This document shows positions 35,051 through 48,847 of a stretch of DNA of 64,000 nucleotides, one piece after another. The number at the start of each line of letters is the position of its first letter. Position 1 is the stretch's first letter. The notes under the pieces were generated by a model. That model searched no databases, was not told the origin of the DNA, and was given only the letters and a program-made list of their open reading frames with translations. Both the position numbers and the translations under genes were made by a program. Source of the DNA: Synechococcus sp. AG-670-F04 (GTDB taxonomy: Bacteria > Cyanobacteriota > Cyanobacteriia > PCC-6307 > Cyanobiaceae); NCBI GenBank assembly GCA_003211515.1, contig QCSN01000007.1, positions 1 through 64,000 of the forward strand, written 5' to 3'.

Positions 35051-35818
35051 TCAGAGCTTGAGACCTGAGCTGGGAAGAGAACTGATGTTGGCGCAGGTTG
35101 TTTTAATGAATTGGCGCGTGTTACTGGAGCCGGCTTTTTTCCAGTCTCCACGCAATTGACCATTCCAATAATAACCAAGAGTGCGATCTTCGCAGTCATA
35201 AACTACGTTTAAGTTCTGTACGCGTGGACCTCCGGCGCTCCCAGGTTTTCCAGGGACCCAGACGCGTGTTGGAGGCGTGGTTTTGCATATTGTTCTCGGA
35301 TTTTGATTGTAGCCACCGCTCACAAGTTTTCCGCCGCTGTAGATAGCGGGTTTCCAGTCACCCGATTGCGTACATTCGGTTTTCCCGTAGTCCACTGTTT
35401 TATAATAACCTGGAACTGCCGCTATGGGTTGTGCGTAACTGTGCACAATTGAAAGGGACGTAAAATAACGATTTGAGCGATTTTTATGCGGAACTTTTCT
35501 GATTTGTGGATCCAAATATCGAATTGTGTTGTCTGAAGCTAGGTATTTAGATTTCCACCCTTTCTTGCGCGGCAAGCCAAAACGATCGCTACCACCTGTC
35601 GAGATACACCAGCCGTCGTTGTCGCAGCTCTGTTGGCTTGAACTTTTTTCCTTATTGTTTAGCGTGACACATCCTTGATAATCTGCTGCATTCAGGCATT
35701 GTTGATGAATGGCAGGATCAATCGCTGCTATAGCAATATTAGGAGTGAAGAGAAGAGGAACGAAGATTATCCTTAGGGATTTGGCTTTGTGGCGTGAACA
35801 AGCTCCTTCTGCTGCCAT
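35051..35818 (-). CDS. Cysteine-rich secreted protein of unknown function
   Basis: A 255-residue protein with a signal peptide (basic start, hydrophobic LRIIFVPLLFTPNIAIAA, cleavage before IDPAIHQQC). The mature part has eight cysteines in pairs such as QQCLNAADYQGC and SCDNDGWC, so two to four disulfides are likely in the periplasm or outside. Tyr/Trp-rich, with GKPGSAGGPRVQNLNVVYDC and RTLGYYWNGQLRGDW. I do not recognise the family. It is divergent from the sulfhydryl-oxidase gene, 335 bases away, which makes it a plausible substrate of that enzyme (inference). Confidence 0.7.
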   Translation of the reverse strand: MAAEGACSRHKAKSLRIIFVPLLFTPNIAIAAIDPAIHQQCLNAADYQGCVTLNNKEKSSSQQSCDNDGWCISTGGSDRFGLPRKKGWKSKYLASDNTIRYLDPQIRKVPHKNRSNRYFTSLSIVHSYAQPIAAVPGYYKTVDYGKTECTQSGDWKPAIYSGGKLVSGGYNQNPRTICKTTPPTRVWVPGKPGSAGGPRVQNLNVVYDCEDRTLGYYWNGQLRGDWKKAGSSNTRQFIKTTCANISSLPSSGLKL

Positions 35819-36153: not shown

Positions 36154-38412
36154 ATGGCTTCCCTGGATTCCAGTTCTTTTGAACAACTGTTCTCAACGTT
36201 GAAGAAGGTGCCGATCAGCGCCGACGTTCTTGTGAAGCAGGTGCAAGAACTCGGTGGAACATTGACGCTCACGGAGCTTGAATCGGTTTTAACGTCAAAT
36301 CGTCTCCAGCCTGATGCGCTGACCGATCAGCAGTGGCGTCAGTTGATGGCGCTGCAGATCGGCACCATTCAAGTGAAGGCCCAAGAAGCCTTCAACCTCT
36401 TGGATTCCAACAAGGATGGGGTGGTTGAGCTCTCGGTTCTGAGGCGATTGTTGCAACTGTTCGACGTGTCTCAGCACACAGCTGAGGCTCTGACCAATGA
36501 ACTCTGCGGGGACGGCTCCGACCGGGTGAACTTTGAAACATTCCTGGCCTATCTCCCAAATCACTTCAGCACGCATCCCAGGGCTTACGTCGGCGCGCAT
36601 CGGCCTGTAAGTGTCCAAGGCCCATCTCAATCTTGTAATCATCGGCAGAGTTCAGGCTCAGGCGGGGAAGGTCTTTCATCTAACGCGGGTACGTCACCGC
36701 TGCAGATGCAGATTGGCTTTTTTCGTTTAATCCAAGGAGCGGCTTATCGAAGCTTCCGTGAAAGTTATTCAGCGCATTCAGAAACACATCTGCGTGCCTA
36801 TGACTTGCCCTATACCATTCCAGATTTCGTCAGTTTTGTGAATGCAGCAATTGATCTCTATCTCTCTCTGGGGATCGTGGAATCCGGGGCAGAAGAACCC
36901 TTTGAAACACTGCGATCGTCCGTGATCCGTGCGGAGCAAGAATTACGTCACCGGATGCAGTACTGGGAAGAGATTCCGCATACTCCGGCCATGCGGGAAG
37001 CGGAAGAGCGGCTCGAGCAGGAATTGATCGAGCTCAATCATCATCATCAAATTCTGGGCGTTGTTCTTGAAGTTCTCTTGACGTCCTCACTGCAGGGGCA
37101 TCAGCCTGAGCAGGTCACCCAGGACGACTTACAAATTCACGAGTTAAATCGCTTGCGTCAGTTGGACGATCATCATGAAATCCATGCTGATCTCGACTTG
37201 GAGCAGTCTGCGATATCGGGCTCCTTTCACGACAGTTGGCAGCGTGTGATTGTTGATTCTGTGGACCGGCGTTTTGCTGGATCGATCATGCCGACAGCGT
37301 ATTGGTATGACGAATTCATGCCGTTGTTGTTGCGTGCCAGTTCTGTTCTCTCTAAGGACGATATTGATGCATGGGATGGTGCTGATCAGGCCACTCTTCA
37401 TACCTGGTTTCAGGAACGCGAGATGGCGGGTGTGTTCAGCCATTACGGCAATGCTCTTCAGACACGCTTTGCGAGCCTGCCGCTTCAAACAAAGAAGATG
37501 TTTCGGCGAGCCTGGGAGCTCACGAGTCACTACCTCAATGGTGTTCAGAAACGACGGGAGCGTGAGGAATTCGGGCGTGAATCAGGTTTCCTATGCCAGT
37601 ACGTCGCTTTTCTCGATCTTCACGTCGGTCGTCACGATGTGCAAGCAAGCCAGATGCGCGTCAGCTTTCCGTATTACATCGGTCCTCCCACGTGGCGATT
37701 GATGCATACCTGTGCAGAGCTGATCGCAGACCAACCACTGGAACAGCAGAAGGATTCGGTGCAATTATTCAGGAGCTTCTTTGAAGCGTTGGCTACGATG
37801 TATCCCTGTCCTTACTGTCGCTTTCATCTCAACCGCTATGTGGTAAAAAATCGCGAGGTGAATATGTATCCAATTGAATATCTGTTTCTGGGCTCAGATC
37901 AGGGCAGTGTCAACCTGGAAGTGTCCTTAAGCGACAAATTTGATGCGGTGATCGATGGAGCATCTCTGCGGCTCTTCCTTTGGAAACTTCACAACACGGT
38001 TTCATCATCTATCGCACGGAGCGAAGCCTGGTATCAGAAGGATTCTGGTGCCTATTACACGTCACGCTACTGGCCAAGCCTTGACTCAGAACTGGAACGA
38101 GCCGAAACGCTGGGTGTGGAGTTGATCCCTCGTGATCGTGTCAGACGGATTTATGGGGTCGTGAAGCAGGCTGCTCATTTATCGGTGTTGCGAGATGAAC
38201 TGCAGCAATCGTTGCATGCTGAGGATCTTCCTCAACAGCAGACCATCCGCAATCGCGCAGTCGTCGTGATTGAAGGTGTTGAAGATGCCGTCACACAATC
38301 GCGCTTTCTGCATGAGAGTTATCGGTATAACCCCACACTTTGTGATGATCCACCGCATTTCACAGATGCGGAAGAGGTCTTGGCACGCAGTGGTCTATTT
38401 ACGGAGAACTAG
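36154..38412 (+). CDS. EF-hand and Erv1/Alr-type sulfhydryl oxidase fusion protein
   Basis: A 752-residue protein. Residues ~75-135 hold an EF-hand pair: the first loop, D84-S-N-K-D-G-V-V-E, has Asp, Asn and Asp at positions 1, 3 and 5 but Val at 12; the second is degenerate (GDGSDRVNFETFL). Residues ~180-500 are mostly helical and unknown, including coiled stretches with EELRHRMQYWEE. Residues ~508-640 match the Erv1/Alr FAD-linked sulfhydryl oxidase fold: PPTWRLMHTC (Trp514, His518), YPCPYC (active-site Cys552 and Cys555), FLWKLHNTVSSSIARSE (His613, Asn614). There is no signal peptide or membrane helix. Erv-type enzymes make disulfides and are mainly eukaryotic or viral, so a cyanobacterial copy with an EF-hand and long helical middle is unusual. 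The start ATG at 36154 gives a plausible N-terminus; no strong SD is seen. Confidence 0.75.
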   Translation: MASLDSSSFEQLFSTLKKVPISADVLVKQVQELGGTLTLTELESVLTSNRLQPDALTDQQWRQLMALQIGTIQVKAQEAFNLLDSNKDGVVELSVLRRLLQLFDVSQHTAEALTNELCGDGSDRVNFETFLAYLPNHFSTHPRAYVGAHRPVSVQGPSQSCNHRQSSGSGGEGLSSNAGTSPLQMQIGFFRLIQGAAYRSFRESYSAHSETHLRAYDLPYTIPDFVSFVNAAIDLYLSLGIVESGAEEPFETLRSSVIRAEQELRHRMQYWEEIPHTPAMREAEERLEQELIELNHHHQILGVVLEVLLTSSLQGHQPEQVTQDDLQIHELNRLRQLDDHHEIHADLDLEQSAISGSFHDSWQRVIVDSVDRRFAGSIMPTAYWYDEFMPLLLRASSVLSKDDIDAWDGADQATLHTWFQEREMAGVFSHYGNALQTRFASLPLQTKKMFRRAWELTSHYLNGVQKRREREEFGRESGFLCQYVAFLDLHVGRHDVQASQMRVSFPYYIGPPTWRLMHTCAELIADQPLEQQKDSVQLFRSFFEALATMYPCPYCRFHLNRYVVKNREVNMYPIEYLFLGSDQGSVNLEVSLSDKFDAVIDGASLRLFLWKLHNTVSSSIARSEAWYQKDSGAYYTSRYWPSLDSELERAETLGVELIPRDRVRRIYGVVKQAAHLSVLRDELQQSLHAEDLPQQQTIRNRAVVVIEGVEDAVTQSRFLHESYRYNPTLCDDPPHFTDAEEVLARSGLFTEN

Positions 38413-38627: not shown

Positions 38628-40751
38628 ATGTCTAAAGCGATAGAGAGAACATCACTTGAGAGGATTCAGGCTCAGCTTGATAAATCAATTTATTATGGCG
38701 AGATCTCTGCCAATACCGATTCAGTTGTTAGGCTAAAAGATAGCATCAAGCAATTTCAGGAAGTTATTCTTAAAGTTAATCTATCTGATGGGCCCAATGA
38801 TGTCTATGGGCATCTTTCTGGGTTAAGCCACGATCTTGATTTGTATTTTTTCAGCGATCATCCCTCAAATTCTTTTATAAGCTCAACAGGCTCAGGTCGC
38901 AGAGCAGAGTTATGTTTTACCCAAATTGACTCCAAGAATGATGATCTTTTTGTTAGAATAAGCTCCAATCAGCCTTTAAAGACGACAAAAGATTTAACAT
39001 TTAAGTTCGACCTGAATGTCTATACAACTGGTCTAAATCCATATCTGGCCACTCCTAATGATCCTTTCTATGGTGAACAGTGGTATTTATTTAATGGTGC
39101 AGGGAAAAATGTAGACTCTGAACTTGCTTTTCTTAATTTTGACATTGCTGCGCCTGAAGCATGGACGAAGCATCGTGGCTCCCGTTCAACACCAATTGCT
39201 GTAATTGATTCAGGAATTGATTTAGAGCACCCAGATTTAAACGACAATATATGGGTAAATGAGGGTGAAATACCAGGAAATAATTTAGATGATGACAGCA
39301 ATGGTTTTGTGGATGACGTTCATGGCTGGGATTTCATAACCAACCAACCAGATGGTCGTTATCGGAAGAGTATGCAGGAGAATATTCGCTCTCATGGTAC
39401 ACATGTTGCAGGCATTATTGGCGCTGAAGGTAATAATAAAATAGGCATTACGGGGATTAATTGGGAGTCCCAGTTAATGTCTTTAAATGTGTTTGATGAT
39501 GCGGGACTGGCTGCAGATAGGCACATTATAAATGCAATCGATTATGCGATAAATAATGGGGCGAAAGTTATTAATTTGTCACTAGGAGAGGAATCTAAAA
39601 TTGGCATTGGCCAGGTTAATTCAAAAAAATTAGAAAGCCGTTATTTCAAAGTTAAAAGTATGTATCGTAATATTTTCAGGAAAGCGAGAAACAATGATGT
39701 ACTGATTGTGATGGCTGCTGGCAATGCAGGTTCACCAGGCTCAGAAACTCGACGATGGAATAGAGTTGGTGACTTGAATTCGAATGCAATTTTTCCCTAT
39801 AGCTTTGCCGAAAAAAAAGATAATCTTATTCTTGTTACTTCAGTTGATTCAGATGCCAAAATTGCCCCATATGCAAACTATGGCAATAAAGTTGTTGATA
39901 TCGCTGCCCCAGGCGGAAATATTCAAAAAGCATCATTTAAGACAGATCCCACAACCGGTCAGATCGTAGATGTTTTTGTCAAAAATTATGGTATTTATAG
40001 TACGGTTCCGGATCAAACAATTGGGTCTGATCAAAAAAAACGTGGTGCCTATATGATGAAAAATGGTACATCGATGGCAGCTCCAGTAATCACTGGAGCT
40101 GCCGCATTAATATGGGATTATCATCCAAAATTAGAGGCATCAGATGTTAAAAAAATTCTTATCAATAATTCTATTGAATTGAATTCCCTAGAGCCTTTTG
40201 TCGTTAATAGTCGAGCGCTACGTTTGGAAGATGCTATGGAGAAAGTTGATAAAATAAAAAGCAAAGATGATGCCTTGATCTCCTCAATTGAGCCAAAAGA
40301 CATGCATGAAGCTGTAGTGAATTGCACAAAAAATAGCTGCGAGTATGTTTCAAGCTTGCAATCAACAATACTAAAAGGTTCACCTGGCAAAGACCTTTTT
40401 ATTTTTAACAATATGGCAACTTTTTCGCTGCAAAATATGGATAAAATTATCAATTTTAATCCATCTCAATCAGATCAACTGATTTTGCCATCCAAGCGAT
40501 TCAAAGGATTATCAAATGATCGTTTGACATTGCAAACAGTGGCTTCAACGGAAGAGATCATTGAAGCTGCTAAACAACCTGTTGACATTATCTATTTCAA
40601 GAAATCTGGTCAGCTATTTTACAACGCTAATGGAGACGAACCTCGCTTTGGTGGCGAGCAAATTGGTGGCCTTTTTGCAGAAATTAAAAACACTCCTGAT
40701 CTGACACTTAATGATTTTGCTGTCGTTGAGGATCCAATTGCAACTTTATAA
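38628..40751 (+). CDS. Subtilisin-like serine protease with C-terminal RTX-like domain
   Basis: A 707-residue S8 protease without a classical signal peptide. An N-terminal beta domain (~35-130) resembles a PPC-like prepeptidase fold. The catalytic domain has Asp194 (AVIDSGID), His256 (SHGTHVAGIIG), Asn366 (AAGNAGSPG) and Ser482 (NGTSMAAPVITGAA), so it looks active. Residues ~565-707 start at KGSPGKDLFIFNN and include IINFNPSQSDQLIL, GQLFYNANGDEPRFGGEQIG and a final LTLNDFAVVEDP, typical of RTX-type C-terminal secretion domains. This suggests type I export or surface display. It follows the oxidase gene after 215 bases. AT-rich, unlike core genes of the window. Confidence 0.85.
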   Translation: MSKAIERTSLERIQAQLDKSIYYGEISANTDSVVRLKDSIKQFQEVILKVNLSDGPNDVYGHLSGLSHDLDLYFFSDHPSNSFISSTGSGRRAELCFTQIDSKNDDLFVRISSNQPLKTTKDLTFKFDLNVYTTGLNPYLATPNDPFYGEQWYLFNGAGKNVDSELAFLNFDIAAPEAWTKHRGSRSTPIAVIDSGIDLEHPDLNDNIWVNEGEIPGNNLDDDSNGFVDDVHGWDFITNQPDGRYRKSMQENIRSHGTHVAGIIGAEGNNKIGITGINWESQLMSLNVFDDAGLAADRHIINAIDYAINNGAKVINLSLGEESKIGIGQVNSKKLESRYFKVKSMYRNIFRKARNNDVLIVMAAGNAGSPGSETRRWNRVGDLNSNAIFPYSFAEKKDNLILVTSVDSDAKIAPYANYGNKVVDIAAPGGNIQKASFKTDPTTGQIVDVFVKNYGIYSTVPDQTIGSDQKKRGAYMMKNGTSMAAPVITGAAALIWDYHPKLEASDVKKILINNSIELNSLEPFVVNSRALRLEDAMEKVDKIKSKDDALISSIEPKDMHEAVVNCTKNSCEYVSSLQSTILKGSPGKDLFIFNNMATFSLQNMDKIINFNPSQSDQLILPSKRFKGLSNDRLTLQTVASTEEIIEAAKQPVDIIYFKKSGQLFYNANGDEPRFGGEQIGGLFAEIKNTPDLTLNDFAVVEDPIATL

Positions 40752-40846
40752 TGCGAAGTTACGTCTTTCTATGAACTAGACAGAACTCCTGTTTTTTTTC
40801 TTGACTTCGGCTATGACGGAAGAGTCTATGTGTTGAGCCTGATTGA

Positions 40847-43800
40847 ATGATATTGTCATCCTTATTAAGTATAAAGACTCAATCCAGAAAGCATGTTCTT
40901 GCTCCGAGTGATCTTGTTGAATATTTGTCATTAGATTTCTATTTATCCTCCGATACTTGGAATATTCATGCGGTTGAGCCAGAAACTAATATTGAACAGT
41001 TATTAGAAGTTATCAAAGACTATTCAGATCAAGAAATTCATTTGATCTGCCATGGCGATGGCGTGACTCTTCAGATTGGTGAGGGCCTTCCCTTATCGAG
41101 ATTGTACGAAGTGAGACGAGATTGCTTATCCGTCTCGACCCCTGACCTTGTCCTTTGGTCCTGTTATGGAGGTCTGCACTACGGTTGTTCTGATCGTGTA
41201 AGGGCTCGGATTATCACGACTGACTCCCTTCTCGGTAACAACAAAACTATTGAGGGGTATGCGCCGTTGAGTTCATTAGTGCAGAAAAGTAGTGTGGAAT
41301 TGAATGATAAATCTGCTGGATGGACTTCAAAAAACAAGGAACTTTTTGCGTTACATCCACCTAAACAAAATAAAAAAACTGGTATTTGGCATCTTGATCA
41401 AGACAATAGCGTCAACTTCTTTTCGAAGATTTCCCAAAATAAGCTCATCGTTTTACCTAAACTTAAAGGAATTCGTTCAGAGATCACCTCTGAATACAAA
41501 GATTTTCGTGAATGGACGATTCGTTTTGACGCCGCTGATCCGAAATTAACATTTCGCCTCCCGAAAATATTGCGGTCGAAAGATTCTGGTAAGAGCGACT
41601 TATTGACGACCGAAGTCACCGTTGAAGATGCATCAATTAAATCTTGGCATGTAGAGGCTTCAGCTGATTTACTTGATATCGATAGCCTAAATATTAGTGG
41701 AAAAGTTAATCTTAGCCATGAAATCGGATCGTCACAGTATATACTTGGTGGGGTTGTTGACCTTTTTAGTGATTCGCCTATTGCAGAATATTTTGATTTC
41801 GGCTCTCAAAAATTCGATGGCCAGGTGGTTTTTAATCACTCTGCGCATAAAAATAAGACTCGAGATAGATTTCATGTTGTTAGTTTTGAGGGTAAGACAC
41901 CATTTGATATCGACTTGTTTGGTTTGGGTGGACTAAAAAGTTCAAAGAAATCTTCAATTTCTTATAGTAAATCGCAGAAATCTTCCGATACTGATAATAA
42001 TGTAGATGGTAGATATACTATTTCTCATATTAAAACTACTGGGGGGCGTGGAAGTATCTTTGGTAGGGGCGTTAAATTTCCTGATTTAAATTTTAACCTT
42101 TTGAACGGTGCTTTTAAGATTGGCAAATGGAAGACATCCGGTAAATTATCATTCAATATCCCTGGTCTTAATACGAATAAAAAAATTGATATTAGCTCCC
42201 AGCCTTCGAGTTCAAAACAACAAGAAATTAAGATTAGGAACCTTAAGTTGCCTAATAATCAGCCGTTATTTGAAGATGGAGCAGCTATTAATTCTCTTAC
42301 TGTTACACAGGATGAAAATGGTATTTGGTATCCAAAAGCATGGTCAGCTCGTGGAGATTTTAAACTCCCATTCAATGCGCTTAAGTTTGCGCCAGATCTT
42401 CGCTTGAATTACAAAAAATCAGCTAATGGTGATTTGATCTCTCTTAAAAATGCAAGTATACTTAATGATAATAATCAATTGATAACGTCCGGCTCGATTT
42501 CAAATGCAGATTTATCGAAGGGTCCTAGTAATAAATGGCTGATTTCATCATTAAAAGCCAAAGGTGAACTGACAAATTTGTTAAAGCCACTTGGAATTGA
42601 TTTGAATCCAAGTGTTGCTTTCAGCTACTCCTTTGATCCGAAAAAATCCGAAGAGTTGTATGAACTTTCAGGCAGTTTAGTTTCAAATTCAAAAGCGTCC
42701 TCGTTGCTAGTCAATGGTTCATTGGATCATCTTCACCTTGTAAAACCAAACAAAAATAATGACAGATGGACGATTTCGAATTGGCAAGCTACTGGCTCTT
42801 TAAATGTCAAACCAATAGGGCTTTCTATCGATAAAGCCACTTTGAGATATAACAATGATGATGGAATACCAACATACTCGATTCGTGATCTTGAATTATC
42901 GAAAACAGGTGTTCAATCTAATTTATTGGAGGCGGCTACACTGCGCCACCTTGAATTTCAACCCATTCAAAACGGCCGAGGATGGAAGATATCCGAGTGG
43001 GAAGCAAAGGGAAACTTCAACCAGAATATTGCTGGTCTTGCACTTGATGCAGGACTCACTCTTGCATTCGACCACAACGAGAAAGATTCTTTTTATACAA
43101 TTTCAAATGCTGTTCTGAAAAGCAATGCTTCGGCCACGAATAATAATCTCTTACTTTCTTCTGGTCAATTAGATGAACTTGTATTCAGTTACTTACCTAC
43201 TAACAAGGGAAGAATACTTGATGTCAAGCATTGGAATGCAACCGGACGTCTCAATGTAGATGTGCTGGGTTTGTCCATCGATGGTCTTGTTGATATGGCT
43301 TTTTCGAAAAAGAATAATAAACACCGTTACATTATTGAAAAAGCTCAGTTATCTTCAAAAACAGATTCGTCAGTCACCAATCAATTAATTGGTGATGGAG
43401 AAATTCGAAATTTAATTTTTATCCAGGACAAGAGCATTAAGAAACCAGGTTGGACCATCCAGCAATATGAGGCAGAGGGTTCATTTGCGCTCAATTTACC
43501 TGGATTAAATGTTCAAAGTAAGGCTTTGCTCTCTTATCAGAATACTCGTGGAGCTCAGACTTATCGTGTCGATCGTGCCATGGTCGGCGGTGGCTCAAAA
43601 GAGGATGATTTATTTTCAGAAGGCACGGTCAATGATCTTGTATTTGAATTTGATAATACGAACAACCAATGGGATGTGAAATCATTTGAGGTTGATGGGC
43701 GTATTAATTTACCGGTGAGGGGTGTTGACCTCAATTCAAAATTATCAATGAAATATGATCACAATAAGGGCCGAGCTAAGTATGTTATCGCAGAGGCAGA

Positions 43801-46800
43801 AATTGACGCTTCAAAGGATAAGCAGGGAGCTGATCATATTTTTGCTAAGGCAATGATTAATGATTTGATTTTCATTGATCAATCGAATGATGACGAAGAA
43901 CGCAAGTGGCAGATTCTTTCCTACGCAGCGATTGGCCAACTTGATTTTTCAATAGCTGGCTTACCTCTAGGCTCAAATGTTAATTTAGAATATAAGTCGA
44001 ATAGAACTTCACAACCCCAATATGTTATCAATGCTGATTTTAATGCTGGTCAAGTAAATGCCAGTTCATTGTTTGCCGAGGGTCGTGTTCAAGATTTAAT
44101 ATTGCGTCCGCACTCTGATCAAGTCGAATCTGATTCCACAGACAAACGTTCAGCCTCATGGATTGTTGATAGTTATACTGCAAGTGGTCGATTTAACTTT
44201 GATATCGCCGGCTTGAAATTTAATTCAAATCTGGATCTTGATTATAAACGGGGAGATGATCCCAATTCAATCGACCTCTACCGCGTTTCTGAGGCATCGT
44301 TGCAGGCCAGTAAGGAGGATCAATCAGCATTATTTGCCGAGGCTAAGCTCCGCGATCTTGTTATCCATCACTTACCGAATAAAAGTGGCCGTGATGCCTG
44401 GAAAGTTCAAAAGTATCAAGTTAATGGTTTGCTTAATATTGATATAGCGGGCCTCAATCTCTCTTCAGATGTCGAATTGAAGTATCGCTATGACGCTTTA
44501 AATTCTCGAGATTTTTATTCTGCTAACGCCACGGTTTCAGCTGATACGACCGACTCGGAATCATTATTCACAACAGCAGATATAACCAACCTTCAGTTCA
44601 GCTATGAACAGCAAAATCAGATGAATCCCTGGCAGGTTGATCAATATGATGCATCAGGGATGTTGGCGATGGAGGTGTTGGGTTTAAACCTCTCATCTGG
44701 TGTCGATTTAACATACCGACGTGAATCTTCAGGCCTGGAGCGCTACATAGCGTCTGCCAGTATTACCGCTGCTGGGGGCGATCCCAATAGTTTGTTTGCC
44801 TCGGCTGAAGTTGAGGATATGGAGTTTTCACATCATGCCAATCCTGAGGATGCTGGTGACTCATGGACCGTTGATAAATTTCGTGCTTCTGGACAATTGT
44901 CATTTGAGGTTCCTGGTCTAAATCTTAGTTCTGGTGTTGATGTTAATTATGGTCTTGATGAGTCTGGAGAGCCTCTTTTTATTGTAAATGCCAGTATTAA
45001 AACCAAAGGAATCCAGCCAGATAGTTTATTTGGCAGGGCAGAAGTTAGTGACTTGTTTGTTCGATATCGCGAACCTTTAGAAGGATCATCTGCTTCCTGG
45101 TTCGTTGAGCAATTTGATGCCGAAGGTGAGTTGGAAGTTCCGATATTGGGATTAAATTTTAATGGAAATGTTGCTCTTGAATACCGTCATAATATTACTT
45201 CGGGCATTGATAACTATCGTATTAATGGAAAGGTAAGCGCAGCAAGCCAGGACGCTGAATCTATTTTTGCTAAAGCTACAGTCTCTGATCTTCTGTTAAG
45301 TCGAAATCAGAATTCTCCACCTGGGGCATCTGCTTGGCGAGTTGATCAGTTTGATGCTTCGGGAGAACTTAATTTTCCTGTTGCGGGTCTCAACTTCACG
45401 AGTGATGTGCAACTTTCATATCGTAATCCTCTGGAAGGTTCGGAACAATATATTTTAAATGCCGAAGTTGGTGGTTCAGCCGATTCAGATTCGTTATTTG
45501 CTTCAGCCAAAGTTACTGATATGATCATTGAACCTACTGTCGATCCTTCTGCTCGCAATAGTAGAAAGTGGGCTGTGCGGCAATACAAGGCTTCCGGTGC
45601 ATTGTCATTTAATATATCCGGACTATCATTTGCTTCAGCTGTAAATCTTGAGTATCAAAACGTTGGTAATTTAGAGACATTCACAATACCAGCGGCGTCT
45701 TTAAAATCGTCCGGTTCCAGCTTATTGGCTTCGGGGCGTGTTGAAAATCTTACGTTTACTCGTTCTAGATCCACTCCTTCTCGTTCGGATGATGTCTCAC
45801 TGCCGTCGACGACCACTTGGAGTACTGAACAGTGGGATGCCAGTGGTGCACTAAACATTGCAGCTCCAGGTTTGAATCTCTCTGCTGGTGCTTCCGTTAG
45901 TTATCGCTCAGATTCCCAGCAGTATTTGGTGAGCGCTCAACTTGAATCGGCGTCGGATTTATTGCAAGCTGGAGCTTCACTCGATCAGATGGTTGTTAAA
46001 AAATCAACTGTTGAGGGGGCGACCAAACCCTGGTTGATTGAACAATGGACTGCATCGGGGAGTCTCAATCTTGATACAACTGGTTTTCAGATGGATTCGA
46101 GAATGAGGATCCAGTTCCTCTCTGATCTTCTTTCCCCGACGGGTCGTGATATTTATAAAGTGAGTGGCGGCCTGTCTTTTGAGGCGGGTCTTTTTAATGG
46201 CGATGTGTCGTTGAATGAGATGTTAATAGAACCCACCTCTCAAAATGATTGGGCTATTTCGAGATGGAATGCATCTGGCCTGTTGGATATCAAATTTGGC
46301 GGTCTCTCTGCCTCTGGCTCTATTGCTGTTGATTATCTTGCAGGTGTTGATGGTCAACCTGATTCTTATGTCATTGATGACCTCACATTAGCGTCATCTG
46401 GTGAATTCTTTTCGGGTCAGGTCTCTGCCCAAGATGTAAATCTTACTTATGATCCACAATATGGTTGGATCCCGCTTTCGGCGAAGCTGCGCGGTAGTTT
46501 AGCCGCTGATTTCGACCTTATTGGTTTGCAGGGGGATGTTGCTTTAGATTATTCCTATGATCCTGTTCGTAAAACGACTGTTTGGAAAACCAGTGACGCG
46601 ACGTCGGCGGATTTAAAATTAGCGATAAAAGATTTTGCAGATTTTAAGACTTCAGTCCAGTTTGAAAGAGTGATTCCAGATTCTTCACTTGAAACACCAT
46701 ACTTCAAATCTTTGTCAGCAGGCCTCGATCAAGGCCAAATCAGTATCGGAGATCTTGATTTTGATATCCCCAAGCAAGGTGTTGAATTTGCCTATGCCCA

Positions 46801-48847
46801 GAATCCAATCGTTGTGAATGGTAAAACTGAACTTGAAACGATTTACGGCGTTAATGGGTCTTTTGGTTTTGATCTTGTTGATAATTTTCTAGCGGTTGAT
46901 CTTGAGGCGGGCTCTGGAAGTATTGCATCATCAATGCGTCAAATTATTGATGACGATTACTTTTCATCACTTCGAAATAGTGCTGTAAAAAATAATATTT
47001 GGAATGTTGGAACGATCAGTGGTTCGGCCAGTTTCAATGGTCAATCTGGCTTTGATTTGGGTTTGGCCAAGATTGGATCGCTGGGGGTTTCCAATCAATC
47101 CAAATTGCCTGACGGCAAATCAGTACCATTGGGTTTGTACAAGTACAACGGACCGACACGCGCTGATCAAACAGGTTTGGCATCTGACCTAACAGTTGAA
47201 GCTAAAGATATCACTCTTAGGGTTGGAGCTTTCGCGAATGGGATTCAACCGCTTGCTAAATCTATTTCAAATTTTGTTTCGCCTTTGAAAGAGCCAATTG
47301 ATTATTTGAAGAAGGATATTCTTGGTGGTTTTTACGATGGTATTGATGAGCGTACTTCTTGGATTATTGGCAAAGCCAATTCAGTTTTGAAGTATTTCCC
47401 TTTCGATGCGTCGATCTCTCATCCGTATTTGGGTCGCAAAATTAACTCAAAAATTGGCAATAGTGCGAGTGATATTATTGATTCAGTCTATGAGATTCGT
47501 TACAATAAAAAGTTGCATCTGTCGGACAAGCTGGATGCTGCTAGGACTTTTCTGGATCAGATGGATGCGTTCTCACGTAATTCCTATGTAGACCGCAAAG
47601 TGGATGGTTTGAGTTTTGCATATACAATACCTTCGCATGTTTCTTCGACACAGAATCCAACTCCTTCGTCTTCTGTTGGTGTTCATCAGGCCAGTCAGTC
47701 GCTTCGGCAGACGGTCGGAGCTATTCAGCCAGCTGCGCATCCTGCGCTGAAATCGACCGATTTAGGTTTGTCGCTACCGGTCATGGAGAAACGTTTTGGT
47801 ACATATCTTGAATATCCTGCTTTTGCGTCGTCTGATTCTGTCAAATCGATGCTTAAAACATTTTTTACGCAACCTGATCAGCCGATTGATATTTTTAAGT
47901 TTGGCATGGGTTTAAATATCGATAATCTTAGTTTTGATACACCTAATTTGCTGCCAAATCCATTGTCTCTCAAGCTAGGTGCTGGAATTGGCTTTGATTT
48001 AAAGACTCAGGCTGGAATGCAGATTTCTGGTTCTGATATTTTCGAATTAATGACAGCGGATCAAGTGCCCAGTGTTGTCGCTGATCTTTTCTCCCAGAAT
48101 GTCTACTTAGACCTTGACAATACATCTGCTTCGATTCGTCCTGAATTCAATTTATCAGCCGGTCTTGAACTTGTTCCCGAAGGTCCGGTTCGATCTGCTT
48201 GCGATAATTGGGTTCAAAAAAATGTCATCAAATATTGTGGGGGAACTCCTGGATACGCTTTGGGCGCAAGTTTAGATACAAAGCTTTCGGCCGACCTTAC
48301 TGTGCAATTGGATAATGCTGGTGGCAACCGGGTTTATCTTGATCAGCTTGACTCGATGAAGCTTTCGCCTCGTTTGTCCTTTGATGGTTTGACGTTAAGT
48401 CCGAATTTGCGGTTGAATTACATTGTTGGTACTCAGAATTACCCTTTGGGTCATGTAGAGGTGTTGCCTGCTGTATCGATTGGTTCCAATTCACCACAAA
48501 CCTTCGGTGTTAAACAGGCCTACAGTGATTTCGATCAATATTTCGGTGATCGCCTTACCCTTGCGTCTAGAAGGGTTTTAGGTTCATCAGGGAATGATCG
48601 CTATGTTGGAAAAGATGGAGTCATCGACCATGTGATTGTTTCTGCTGGGAAGGACAAGCTCAGGCGCTTCAATCCCTCTGAAGGTGATCGTTTGATTGTC
48701 TCTAGCGATATCGACTTTTCGGTTGAAAGAGTAAGAAATGGTCTTGTGATTGATCTTGAGGATCTCGGAACCATGAAAATTAATGGCTTGAACTCAAAGA
48801 AAATTAGCATTGACGATTTTATACTTAATCAGTCTGATATTGTCTAA
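40847..48847 (+). CDS. Giant repeat surface protein with DUF4347-like head
   Basis: A 2666-residue protein, the longest in the window. The first ~130 residues match the DUF4347-type head of large cyanobacterial surface proteins (EIHLICHGDGVTLQIGEG, SRLYEV, DLVLWSCYGGLHYG). About 20 repeats of 75-80 residues follow, between residues ~420 and ~1880, each of the form W-x-(V/I)-x-(Q/K)-(F/Y/W)-x-A-S-G-x-L then GLNLSSxVxLxYR and a strand ending FAxAxVxDL, which suggests a long beta-solenoid or beta-groove rod. A unique region of ~650 residues follows. The C-terminus (GSSGNDRYVGKDGVIDHVIV, LRRFNPSEGDRLIVS) is RTX-like. No signal peptide; type I export is inferred. It follows the protease by 95 bases in the same direction. 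Confidence 0.8.
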   Translation: MILSSLLSIKTQSRKHVLAPSDLVEYLSLDFYLSSDTWNIHAVEPETNIEQLLEVIKDYSDQEIHLICHGDGVTLQIGEGLPLSRLYEVRRDCLSVSTPDLVLWSCYGGLHYGCSDRVRARIITTDSLLGNNKTIEGYAPLSSLVQKSSVELNDKSAGWTSKNKELFALHPPKQNKKTGIWHLDQDNSVNFFSKISQNKLIVLPKLKGIRSEITSEYKDFREWTIRFDAADPKLTFRLPKILRSKDSGKSDLLTTEVTVEDASIKSWHVEASADLLDIDSLNISGKVNLSHEIGSSQYILGGVVDLFSDSPIAEYFDFGSQKFDGQVVFNHSAHKNKTRDRFHVVSFEGKTPFDIDLFGLGGLKSSKKSSISYSKSQKSSDTDNNVDGRYTISHIKTTGGRGSIFGRGVKFPDLNFNLLNGAFKIGKWKTSGKLSFNIPGLNTNKKIDISSQPSSSKQQEIKIRNLKLPNNQPLFEDGAAINSLTVTQDENGIWYPKAWSARGDFKLPFNALKFAPDLRLNYKKSANGDLISLKNASILNDNNQLITSGSISNADLSKGPSNKWLISSLKAKGELTNLLKPLGIDLNPSVAFSYSFDPKKSEELYELSGSLVSNSKASSLLVNGSLDHLHLVKPNKNNDRWTISNWQATGSLNVKPIGLSIDKATLRYNNDDGIPTYSIRDLELSKTGVQSNLLEAATLRHLEFQPIQNGRGWKISEWEAKGNFNQNIAGLALDAGLTLAFDHNEKDSFYTISNAVLKSNASATNNNLLLSSGQLDELVFSYLPTNKGRILDVKHWNATGRLNVDVLGLSIDGLVDMAFSKKNNKHRYIIEKAQLSSKTDSSVTNQLIGDGEIRNLIFIQDKSIKKPGWTIQQYEAEGSFALNLPGLNVQSKALLSYQNTRGAQTYRVDRAMVGGGSKEDDLFSEGTVNDLVFEFDNTNNQWDVKSFEVDGRINLPVRGVDLNSKLSMKYDHNKGRAKYVIAEAEIDASKDKQGADHIFAKAMINDLIFIDQSNDDEERKWQILSYAAIGQLDFSIAGLPLGSNVNLEYKSNRTSQPQYVINADFNAGQVNASSLFAEGRVQDLILRPHSDQVESDSTDKRSASWIVDSYTASGRFNFDIAGLKFNSNLDLDYKRGDDPNSIDLYRVSEASLQASKEDQSALFAEAKLRDLVIHHLPNKSGRDAWKVQKYQVNGLLNIDIAGLNLSSDVELKYRYDALNSRDFYSANATVSADTTDSESLFTTADITNLQFSYEQQNQMNPWQVDQYDASGMLAMEVLGLNLSSGVDLTYRRESSGLERYIASASITAAGGDPNSLFASAEVEDMEFSHHANPEDAGDSWTVDKFRASGQLSFEVPGLNLSSGVDVNYGLDESGEPLFIVNASIKTKGIQPDSLFGRAEVSDLFVRYREPLEGSSASWFVEQFDAEGELEVPILGLNFNGNVALEYRHNITSGIDNYRINGKVSAASQDAESIFAKATVSDLLLSRNQNSPPGASAWRVDQFDASGELNFPVAGLNFTSDVQLSYRNPLEGSEQYILNAEVGGSADSDSLFASAKVTDMIIEPTVDPSARNSRKWAVRQYKASGALSFNISGLSFASAVNLEYQNVGNLETFTIPAASLKSSGSSLLASGRVENLTFTRSRSTPSRSDDVSLPSTTTWSTEQWDASGALNIAAPGLNLSAGASVSYRSDSQQYLVSAQLESASDLLQAGASLDQMVVKKSTVEGATKPWLIEQWTASGSLNLDTTGFQMDSRMRIQFLSDLLSPTGRDIYKVSGGLSFEAGLFNGDVSLNEMLIEPTSQNDWAISRWNASGLLDIKFGGLSASGSIAVDYLAGVDGQPDSYVIDDLTLASSGEFFSGQVSAQDVNLTYDPQYGWIPLSAKLRGSLAADFDLIGLQGDVALDYSYDPVRKTTVWKTSDATSADLKLAIKDFADFKTSVQFERVIPDSSLETPYFKSLSAGLDQGQISIGDLDFDIPKQGVEFAYAQNPIVVNGKTELETIYGVNGSFGFDLVDNFLAVDLEAGSGSIASSMRQIIDDDYFSSLRNSAVKNNIWNVGTISGSASFNGQSGFDLGLAKIGSLGVSNQSKLPDGKSVPLGLYKYNGPTRADQTGLASDLTVEAKDITLRVGAFANGIQPLAKSISNFVSPLKEPIDYLKKDILGGFYDGIDERTSWIIGKANSVLKYFPFDASISHPYLGRKINSKIGNSASDIIDSVYEIRYNKKLHLSDKLDAARTFLDQMDAFSRNSYVDRKVDGLSFAYTIPSHVSSTQNPTPSSSVGVHQASQSLRQTVGAIQPAAHPALKSTDLGLSLPVMEKRFGTYLEYPAFASSDSVKSMLKTFFTQPDQPIDIFKFGMGLNIDNLSFDTPNLLPNPLSLKLGAGIGFDLKTQAGMQISGSDIFELMTADQVPSVVADLFSQNVYLDLDNTSASIRPEFNLSAGLELVPEGPVRSACDNWVQKNVIKYCGGTPGYALGASLDTKLSADLTVQLDNAGGNRVYLDQLDSMKLSPRLSFDGLTLSPNLRLNYIVGTQNYPLGHVEVLPAVSIGSNSPQTFGVKQAYSDFDQYFGDRLTLASRRVLGSSGNDRYVGKDGVIDHVIVSAGKDKLRRFNPSEGDRLIVSSDIDFSVERVRNGLVIDLEDLGTMKINGLNSKKISIDDFILNQSDIV
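42108..46520 (+). repeat. Array of about 20 diverged coding repeats
   Basis: Protein-level tandem repeats inside the giant surface-protein gene, about 220-250 bases each. The central copies (about 44,100-45,900) are most alike, for instance WQVDQYDASGMLAMEVLGLN, WTVDKFRASGQLSFEVPGLN and WRVDQFDASGELNFPVAGLN, while the outer copies have drifted. The DNA has diverged too far for exact repeats. This favours old duplication with inner copies more recently homogenised or expanded. Confidence 0.85.

Follow-up and report, generated by a model that had tools for sequence, protein, structure and literature searches.

A bacterial Erv-superfamily protein with a calmodulin-like N-terminus and a predicted QSOX-like core

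The 64,000-nucleotide stretch of DNA from the marine cyanobacterium Synechococcus sp. AG-670-F04 analysed here (the window) encodes a member of an overlooked bacterial family, which belongs to the Erv superfamily and has a QSOX-like predicted core together with an ancestral calmodulin domain that is decayed in this lineage. The gene is an intact open reading frame (ORF) with a product of 752 aa (Table 1). At most about seven further open codons lie upstream of the ORF start, giving a full open frame of 759 aa.

An initial annotation of this DNA had proposed a fusion of an EF-hand with an Erv1/Alr sulfhydryl oxidase. The Pfam search bears this out: the Evr1_Alr model (PF04777) matches residues 513–622 with 39.3 bits against a cut-off of 27.6 (E 8.9e-10), and EF-hand models match residues 75–133 at 22 bits, below their cut-off. 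The Evr1_Alr match is the single one in the host genome, and the same search matched none of 14 control genomes. The motifs first pointed out, PPTWRLMH (residues in the 510s), YPCPYC (550–555) and KLHNTV (611–616), are all present. The helix with LHNTV had been called final, but ~135 residues come after HNTV.

Neither a transmembrane segment nor a signal peptide is seen in the window protein by Kyte–Doolittle hydropathy (best 19-residue mean 1.49), the lack of a signal peptide agreeing with the initial annotation, and we infer from the sequence that the protein is soluble and cytoplasmic. Just upstream of the gene, the window encodes a 255-aa protein (35051–35818, −) without a Pfam match, which contains several cysteines and may begin with a signal segment.

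Table 1. Position of the gene and its features in the window, with the evidence for each.
Feature	Window position	Strand	Evidence or remark
CaM-psiErv-Erv protein gene	36154–38412	+	752 aa (stop included); intact ORF, orthologues in relatives
Degenerate calmodulin-like domain, residues 1–137	36154–36564	+	Four EF-hand positions, 0 canonical
EF loop 3 DSNKDGVVELSV, residues 84–95	36403–36438	+	Glu12 to Val; sequence, loop table
EF loop 4 CGDGSDRVNFET, residues 118–129	36505–36540	+	Asp1 and Glu12 lost; loop table
Disordered linker, residues 138–178	36565–36687	+	pLDDT <50 at 138–175
Conserved helical region, residues 179–500, with predicted pseudo-Erv (QSOX helix-rich-region-like) half	36688–37653	+	
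Erv domain and following helices, residues 505–725	37666–38328	+	PF04777 at 513–622; Erv1/ALR structure alignment
FAD-site W514...H518, helix 1	37693–37707	+	Invariant (n = 63); aligned with W and H of Erv1/Erv2/ALR
FAD-proximal redox CxxC, C552-P-Y-C555	37807–37818	+	Only Cys in 63/63; aligned with Erv1/Erv2 CxxC
FAD-site helix K611-L-H-N-T-V616	37984–38001	+	K611, H613, N614 and V616 invariant; HNxVN is HNTVS

The Erv domain and its cysteine pair

We show by computation that the protein belongs to the Erv family, that its catalytic residues are invariant and that the family has no other universal cysteine. All 63 aligned members, the lowest identity among which is ~36%, match Evr1_Alr at E ≤ 0.01 and share W514, H518, Y550, C552, C555, W610, K611, H613, N614 and V616. 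When the family profile is aligned with Erv1, Erv2 and ALR, CxxC falls on CxxC and W..H on W..H. Arabidopsis Erv1 HNTVN aligns with HNTVS of the window protein, in which the last Asn of the HNxVN motif is a Ser.

C552 and C555 are the only cysteines present in 63/63 members. No distal shuttle cysteine pair is conserved among them, nor is there a QSOX-type C-terminal CxxC, the commonest cysteine after position 555 being a single one found in 32/63 members. Absence of the shuttle pair is unusual among Erv1/ALR-type enzymes, and because of it we do not place the window protein in the Erv1/ALR/Erv2 subfamily. Pfam finds no Trx-family match in the 63 members and recognises no output domain in the family.

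The calmodulin-like domain and the predicted structure

The N-terminus is homologous to calmodulin, and the EF-hand of the window protein is the remnant of a four-loop domain. Residues 1–137 were modelled as helices and EF β-strands, and match calmodulin at Z 8–10. Filamentous relatives, which align with the window protein N-terminus, carry four canonical EF loops, and the N-terminus of the Kamptonema member (L082) is 49% identical to calmodulin (68/138 residues). By a strict pattern, all four loops are canonical in 34/63 aligned members and none is in 18/63, a group that includes the window protein and its relatives in picocyanobacteria and in Rhizobium/Rhodobacter. The initial remark that position 12 of the EF loop is not acidic was correct, since loop 3 has Val for Glu there. 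Only two state changes between intact and degenerate loops are needed on the tree, so the loss appears to date from an ancestor of the picocyanobacterial-type clade instead of being scattered; the count itself gives no direction. The window protein has no canonical loop left at any of the four positions, so any control of it by calcium is probably weak or gone. The proposal that calcium could tune activity is therefore unlikely to apply to this copy, but is plausible for the filamentous relatives with 4/4 loops. An NCBIfam search also returned weak, sub-cut-off matches to XopAW; this identity was set aside because the EF-hands account for them.

AlphaFold models were built for the whole protein with a 63-sequence alignment (pLDDT 77, pTM 0.75) and for residues 176–752 only (pLDDT 76.8, pTM 0.82), both resting on nearly the same alignment. 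The top VIA-align match for both was the human QSOX1 sulfhydryl-oxidase fragment 3llk (Z 10.6, rmsd 4.5–4.6), a score to be read with VIA-align's own note that helical models can reach Z ~13 by chance. The alignments cover 232 and 226 of the 243 residues of 3llk (93–95% of the chain) and take in the middle region as well as the Erv domain, spanning residues 176–730 of the full model and 1–554 of the 176–752 model. In the search with the latter, single-domain Erv1/ALR structures matched the Erv half (~502–731) over 93–108 residues at Z 5.7–6.1, and non-related chains stayed at Z ≤4.4. An Erv-like fold in the model, alongside the above-cut-off Pfam match, agrees with the initial assignment of an Erv1/Alr domain.

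Plain Foldseek gave no convincing PDB match for the 176–752 model, and QSOX is not among the Foldseek rows listed for either model. PDB sequence matches are all to single-domain Erv1/Erv2/ALR, with none to QSOX. An internal Erv duplication was rejected at the sequence level, as hhalign detects no repeat between the middle region and the Erv domain.

In QSOX, the segment before Erv is a degenerate Erv (psiErv) that forms a pseudo-dimer with Erv (PMC3616962). On the basis of this arrangement and the 3llk match, the middle region, in which many residues are invariant in the 63 members, is read as containing a psiErv half. The models support a psiErv half packed with the Erv half as in QSOX. What had been described as ~330 residues of unknown helical sequence thus looks like a pseudo-Erv domain with additional helices, a likeness that the initial annotation had not noticed.

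The predicted structure of a Yasminevirus protein (A0A5K0UAY3 in BFVD; giant virus, Klosneuvirinae) matches the whole window model over 747 columns (E 7.8e-16, 20% identity), and the next viral match has E 0.1. The viral protein differs in being a 1140-aa protein of a eukaryotic virus, compared by predicted fold. This match to the whole model suggests that the CaM-psiErv-Erv architecture is also present in eukaryotic viruses or their hosts. The label 'Histidine kinase' under which A0A5K0UAY3 is annotated seems incorrect or too narrow, as its predicted fold is that of the complete CaM-psiErv-Erv protein.

Family distribution, transfer and gene context

The family is of one type, ~750–800 aa long, and was found at 105 places in GTDB genomes. 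Among the best 80 of the 105, the cyanobacterial copies are from Nostocales, Oscillatoriales, marine and freshwater Synechococcus, Cyanobium and some Prochlorococcus; the others are from Rhizobiaceae, Rhodobacterales, Jannaschia, Nannocystis, Enhygromyxa and further proteobacterial bins. Homologues occur patchily, in 18/196 related genomes, including 11 of the ~34 of the same genus (the host among them). A search of 386 cyanobacterial genomes gave 16 Evr1_Alr matches, 15 of them in frames of ~760–840 aa and one in a 362-aa frame (G342). Outside cyanobacteria the matches are rare, with 1/297 genomes from the order to which the Rhizobium host belongs and 2/189 from the phylum of Enhygromyxa, one of these two with a different, 284-aa frame. 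In the latter phylum, a 283-aa protein (L122, 1480–2331, −) has an N-terminal part that is sulfotransferase-like by eye and an Evr1_Alr C-terminal part, in which HDQVN is present and CxxC is absent at the expected place.

In a quick tree of the middle and Erv regions, the Rhizobium/Rhodobacter clade is nested among picocyanobacterial copies and a Nannocystaceae clade lies inside the filamentous cyanobacterial ones. This pattern is consistent with gene transfer between phyla. An AU test of the picocyanobacterial copies as monophyletic gave p 0.44. The early suggestion that the gene might be shared with other picocyanobacteria and transferred thus fits both its presence in the same-genus genomes and its patchy, transfer-like spread to other phyla. 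Plasmid spread was discarded, as a single copy, in Gemmobacter aquarius (NCBI name 'ERV1/ALR-related protein'), is on a plasmid. Viral carriage found no backing either: peptide-pattern scans of IMG/VR and a scan of INPHARED phages returned no relative, both being blind to relatives at 20% identity. A divergent copy deposited as 'Klebsiella pneumoniae' (L114) has proteobacterial bins as its closest relatives, which makes a naming error in the deposit probable. Four Prochlorococcus genomes (L040, L050, L053 and L060) retain the gene despite their small size (~1.6 Mb in L040 and L053).

No neighbour within 8 kb is conserved family-wide. The neighbouring families (HisKA, response regulator, HAD, amine oxidase, DUF4079, WD40-kinase, MIP, NACHT) are unrelated and are shared only among close relatives; a conserved operon or partner was therefore rejected, and the gene stands alone. 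Two related Synechococcus genomes (L036, L038) have a DUF4079-type gene directly 3' of the Erv gene. Between these two genes, window 38628–48847 holds a subtilase (707 aa, Peptidase_S8) and a 2666-aa ORF (8-kb) with no Pfam match, a ~10-kb lineage-specific insertion relative to L036 and L038.

VKOR is encoded in the host genome and in 40/41 good-quality genomes searched. Its replacement by the Erv protein was dismissed because VKOR is kept in parallel, and disulfides in the envelope do not necessarily rely on the Erv protein. The initial framing, in which the Erv fold is mainly non-bacterial and bacteria use DsbB/VKOR, is not supported, since PF04777 is found in bacteria (PMC10598087) and VKOR coexists with it here.

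Possible function and relation to known systems

We consider it fairly likely that the protein is a soluble cytoplasmic FAD thiol oxidase of CaM-psiErv-Erv architecture, ancestrally calcium-regulated and served by a separate dithiol protein as donor. The predicted architecture would place a calmodulin-like domain before a catalytically dead pseudo-Erv and a catalytic Erv, the last two packed as in QSOX. C552 and C555, at the N-terminus of an Erv helix, would accept two electrons from a substrate dithiol and pass them to FAD and from there most likely to O2, yielding a disulfide and H2O2. As there is no second conserved cysteine pair, the electrons would come directly from a separate thioredoxin-fold dithiol protein acting in trans (fused in QSOX) or from a small thiol. 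Among filamentous relatives, much as with calredoxin, binding of Ca2+ by all four EF loops would act as a switch on the oxidase or on the access of its partner; in the picocyanobacterium studied here, the decayed loops would leave a mainly structural N-terminal domain. We infer FAD, O2 as acceptor, the partner in trans, and calcium control and its loss. Arguments against this reading are that a cytosolic oxidase must operate against reducing conditions, that the shuttle pair usual in Erv1/ALR-type enzymes is missing, that HNxVN ends in Ser here, and that neither plain Foldseek nor hhalign reveals the QSOX-like arrangement.

The protein might instead be an ordinary Erv1/ALR-like homodimer, with an unrelated helical domain in the middle and a QSOX match that reflects helix packing. 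That PDB sequence matches are all single-domain, that no internal repeat is detectable and that helical folds score a high chance Z would fit such a homodimer. The length aligned with QSOX1, however, is twice that with Erv1/ALR and covers 93–95% of the chain, at Z 10.6 versus ~6, and we regard the homodimer as rather unlikely. A calcium/redox sensor, in which FAD and CxxC report the O2 or thiol state and the calmodulin domain or long helices relay it to a partner, would suit a cytoplasmic protein without shuttle cysteines, encoded by a stand-alone gene without a conserved neighbour, and conservation reaching well past the active site into the middle region. We nevertheless judge a sensor improbable, because the Erv catalytic set is fully conserved and Pfam recognises no output domain. 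The EF-loop decay in 18/63 members and the patchy presence in same-genus genomes could also indicate a decaying remnant, whose Erv domain became non-catalytic in picocyanobacteria along with the EF loops; with invariant catalytic residues, intact frames and near-constant ORF lengths in the picocyanobacterial members, this is very unlikely.

To our knowledge, the calcium effectors of cyanobacteria are poorly known. If the thiol oxidase reading is right, the family is a candidate for coupling Ca2+ directly to the oxidation of thiols in cyanobacteria, and its members form a natural series, with a calcium sensor that decays and an enzyme that remains.

An Erv1/Alr protein in a cyanobacterium is not in itself new, as PF04777 is listed in Nostocales, Oscillatoriophycideae, Rhizobiales and others (PMC10598087) and NCBI already uses the name 'ERV1/ALR-related'. 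No description of the CaM-psiErv-Erv architecture was found in the literature. The family shares with Erv1/Erv2/ALR (PF04777) an above-cut-off profile, W..H, CxxC, the HN motif and the predicted Erv fold, but lacks the distal shuttle pair and lies inside a 750–800 aa chain; those enzymes are mitochondrial, ER or viral, and the window protein is none of these. Cyanobacterial calmodulin-like EF-hands have been described as among the closest to eukaryotic ones and as often fused to redox domains (PMC7016017), as in the present family; the fusions named in the text of that survey are to 7TM, Tic110-like, NOS, NADPH oxidase, thioredoxin and cytochrome domains, with Erv not among them. Chlamydomonas calredoxin (PDB 5e37; PMC4911631), which aligns to the window N-terminal domain at Z 8.5, likewise joins a four-EF-hand calmodulin domain to a thiol redox enzyme. 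Its effector, however, is not an oxidising Erv but a reducing thioredoxin, a domain for which Pfam finds no match after the EF-hands in the present family, and calredoxin is a chloroplast protein.

The closest parallel to the predicted core is QSOX (PDB 3llk; PMC3616962), also a large multidomain enzyme, in which a degenerate Erv half precedes a catalytic Erv with CxxC. QSOX has a Trx domain, a C-terminal CxxC and a signal peptide, whereas the bacterial window protein has none of the three and carries its calmodulin-like domain where QSOX has Trx. The psiErv/Erv module is regarded as strongly characteristic of QSOX, of unknown origin and with no evidence of working alone (PMC3616962). The present family offers testable soluble bacterial proteins for this question, in which a real calmodulin replaces thioredoxin in the same predicted arrangement. 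Speculatively, the bacterial proteins, their giant-virus counterpart and eukaryotic QSOX might derive from one common ancestral psiErv/Erv module, a scenario we hold to be doubtful. If true, psiErv/Erv would once have functioned in the cytoplasm as an oxidase gated by calcium, with no thioredoxin fused to it, giving a lead to the origin of QSOX.
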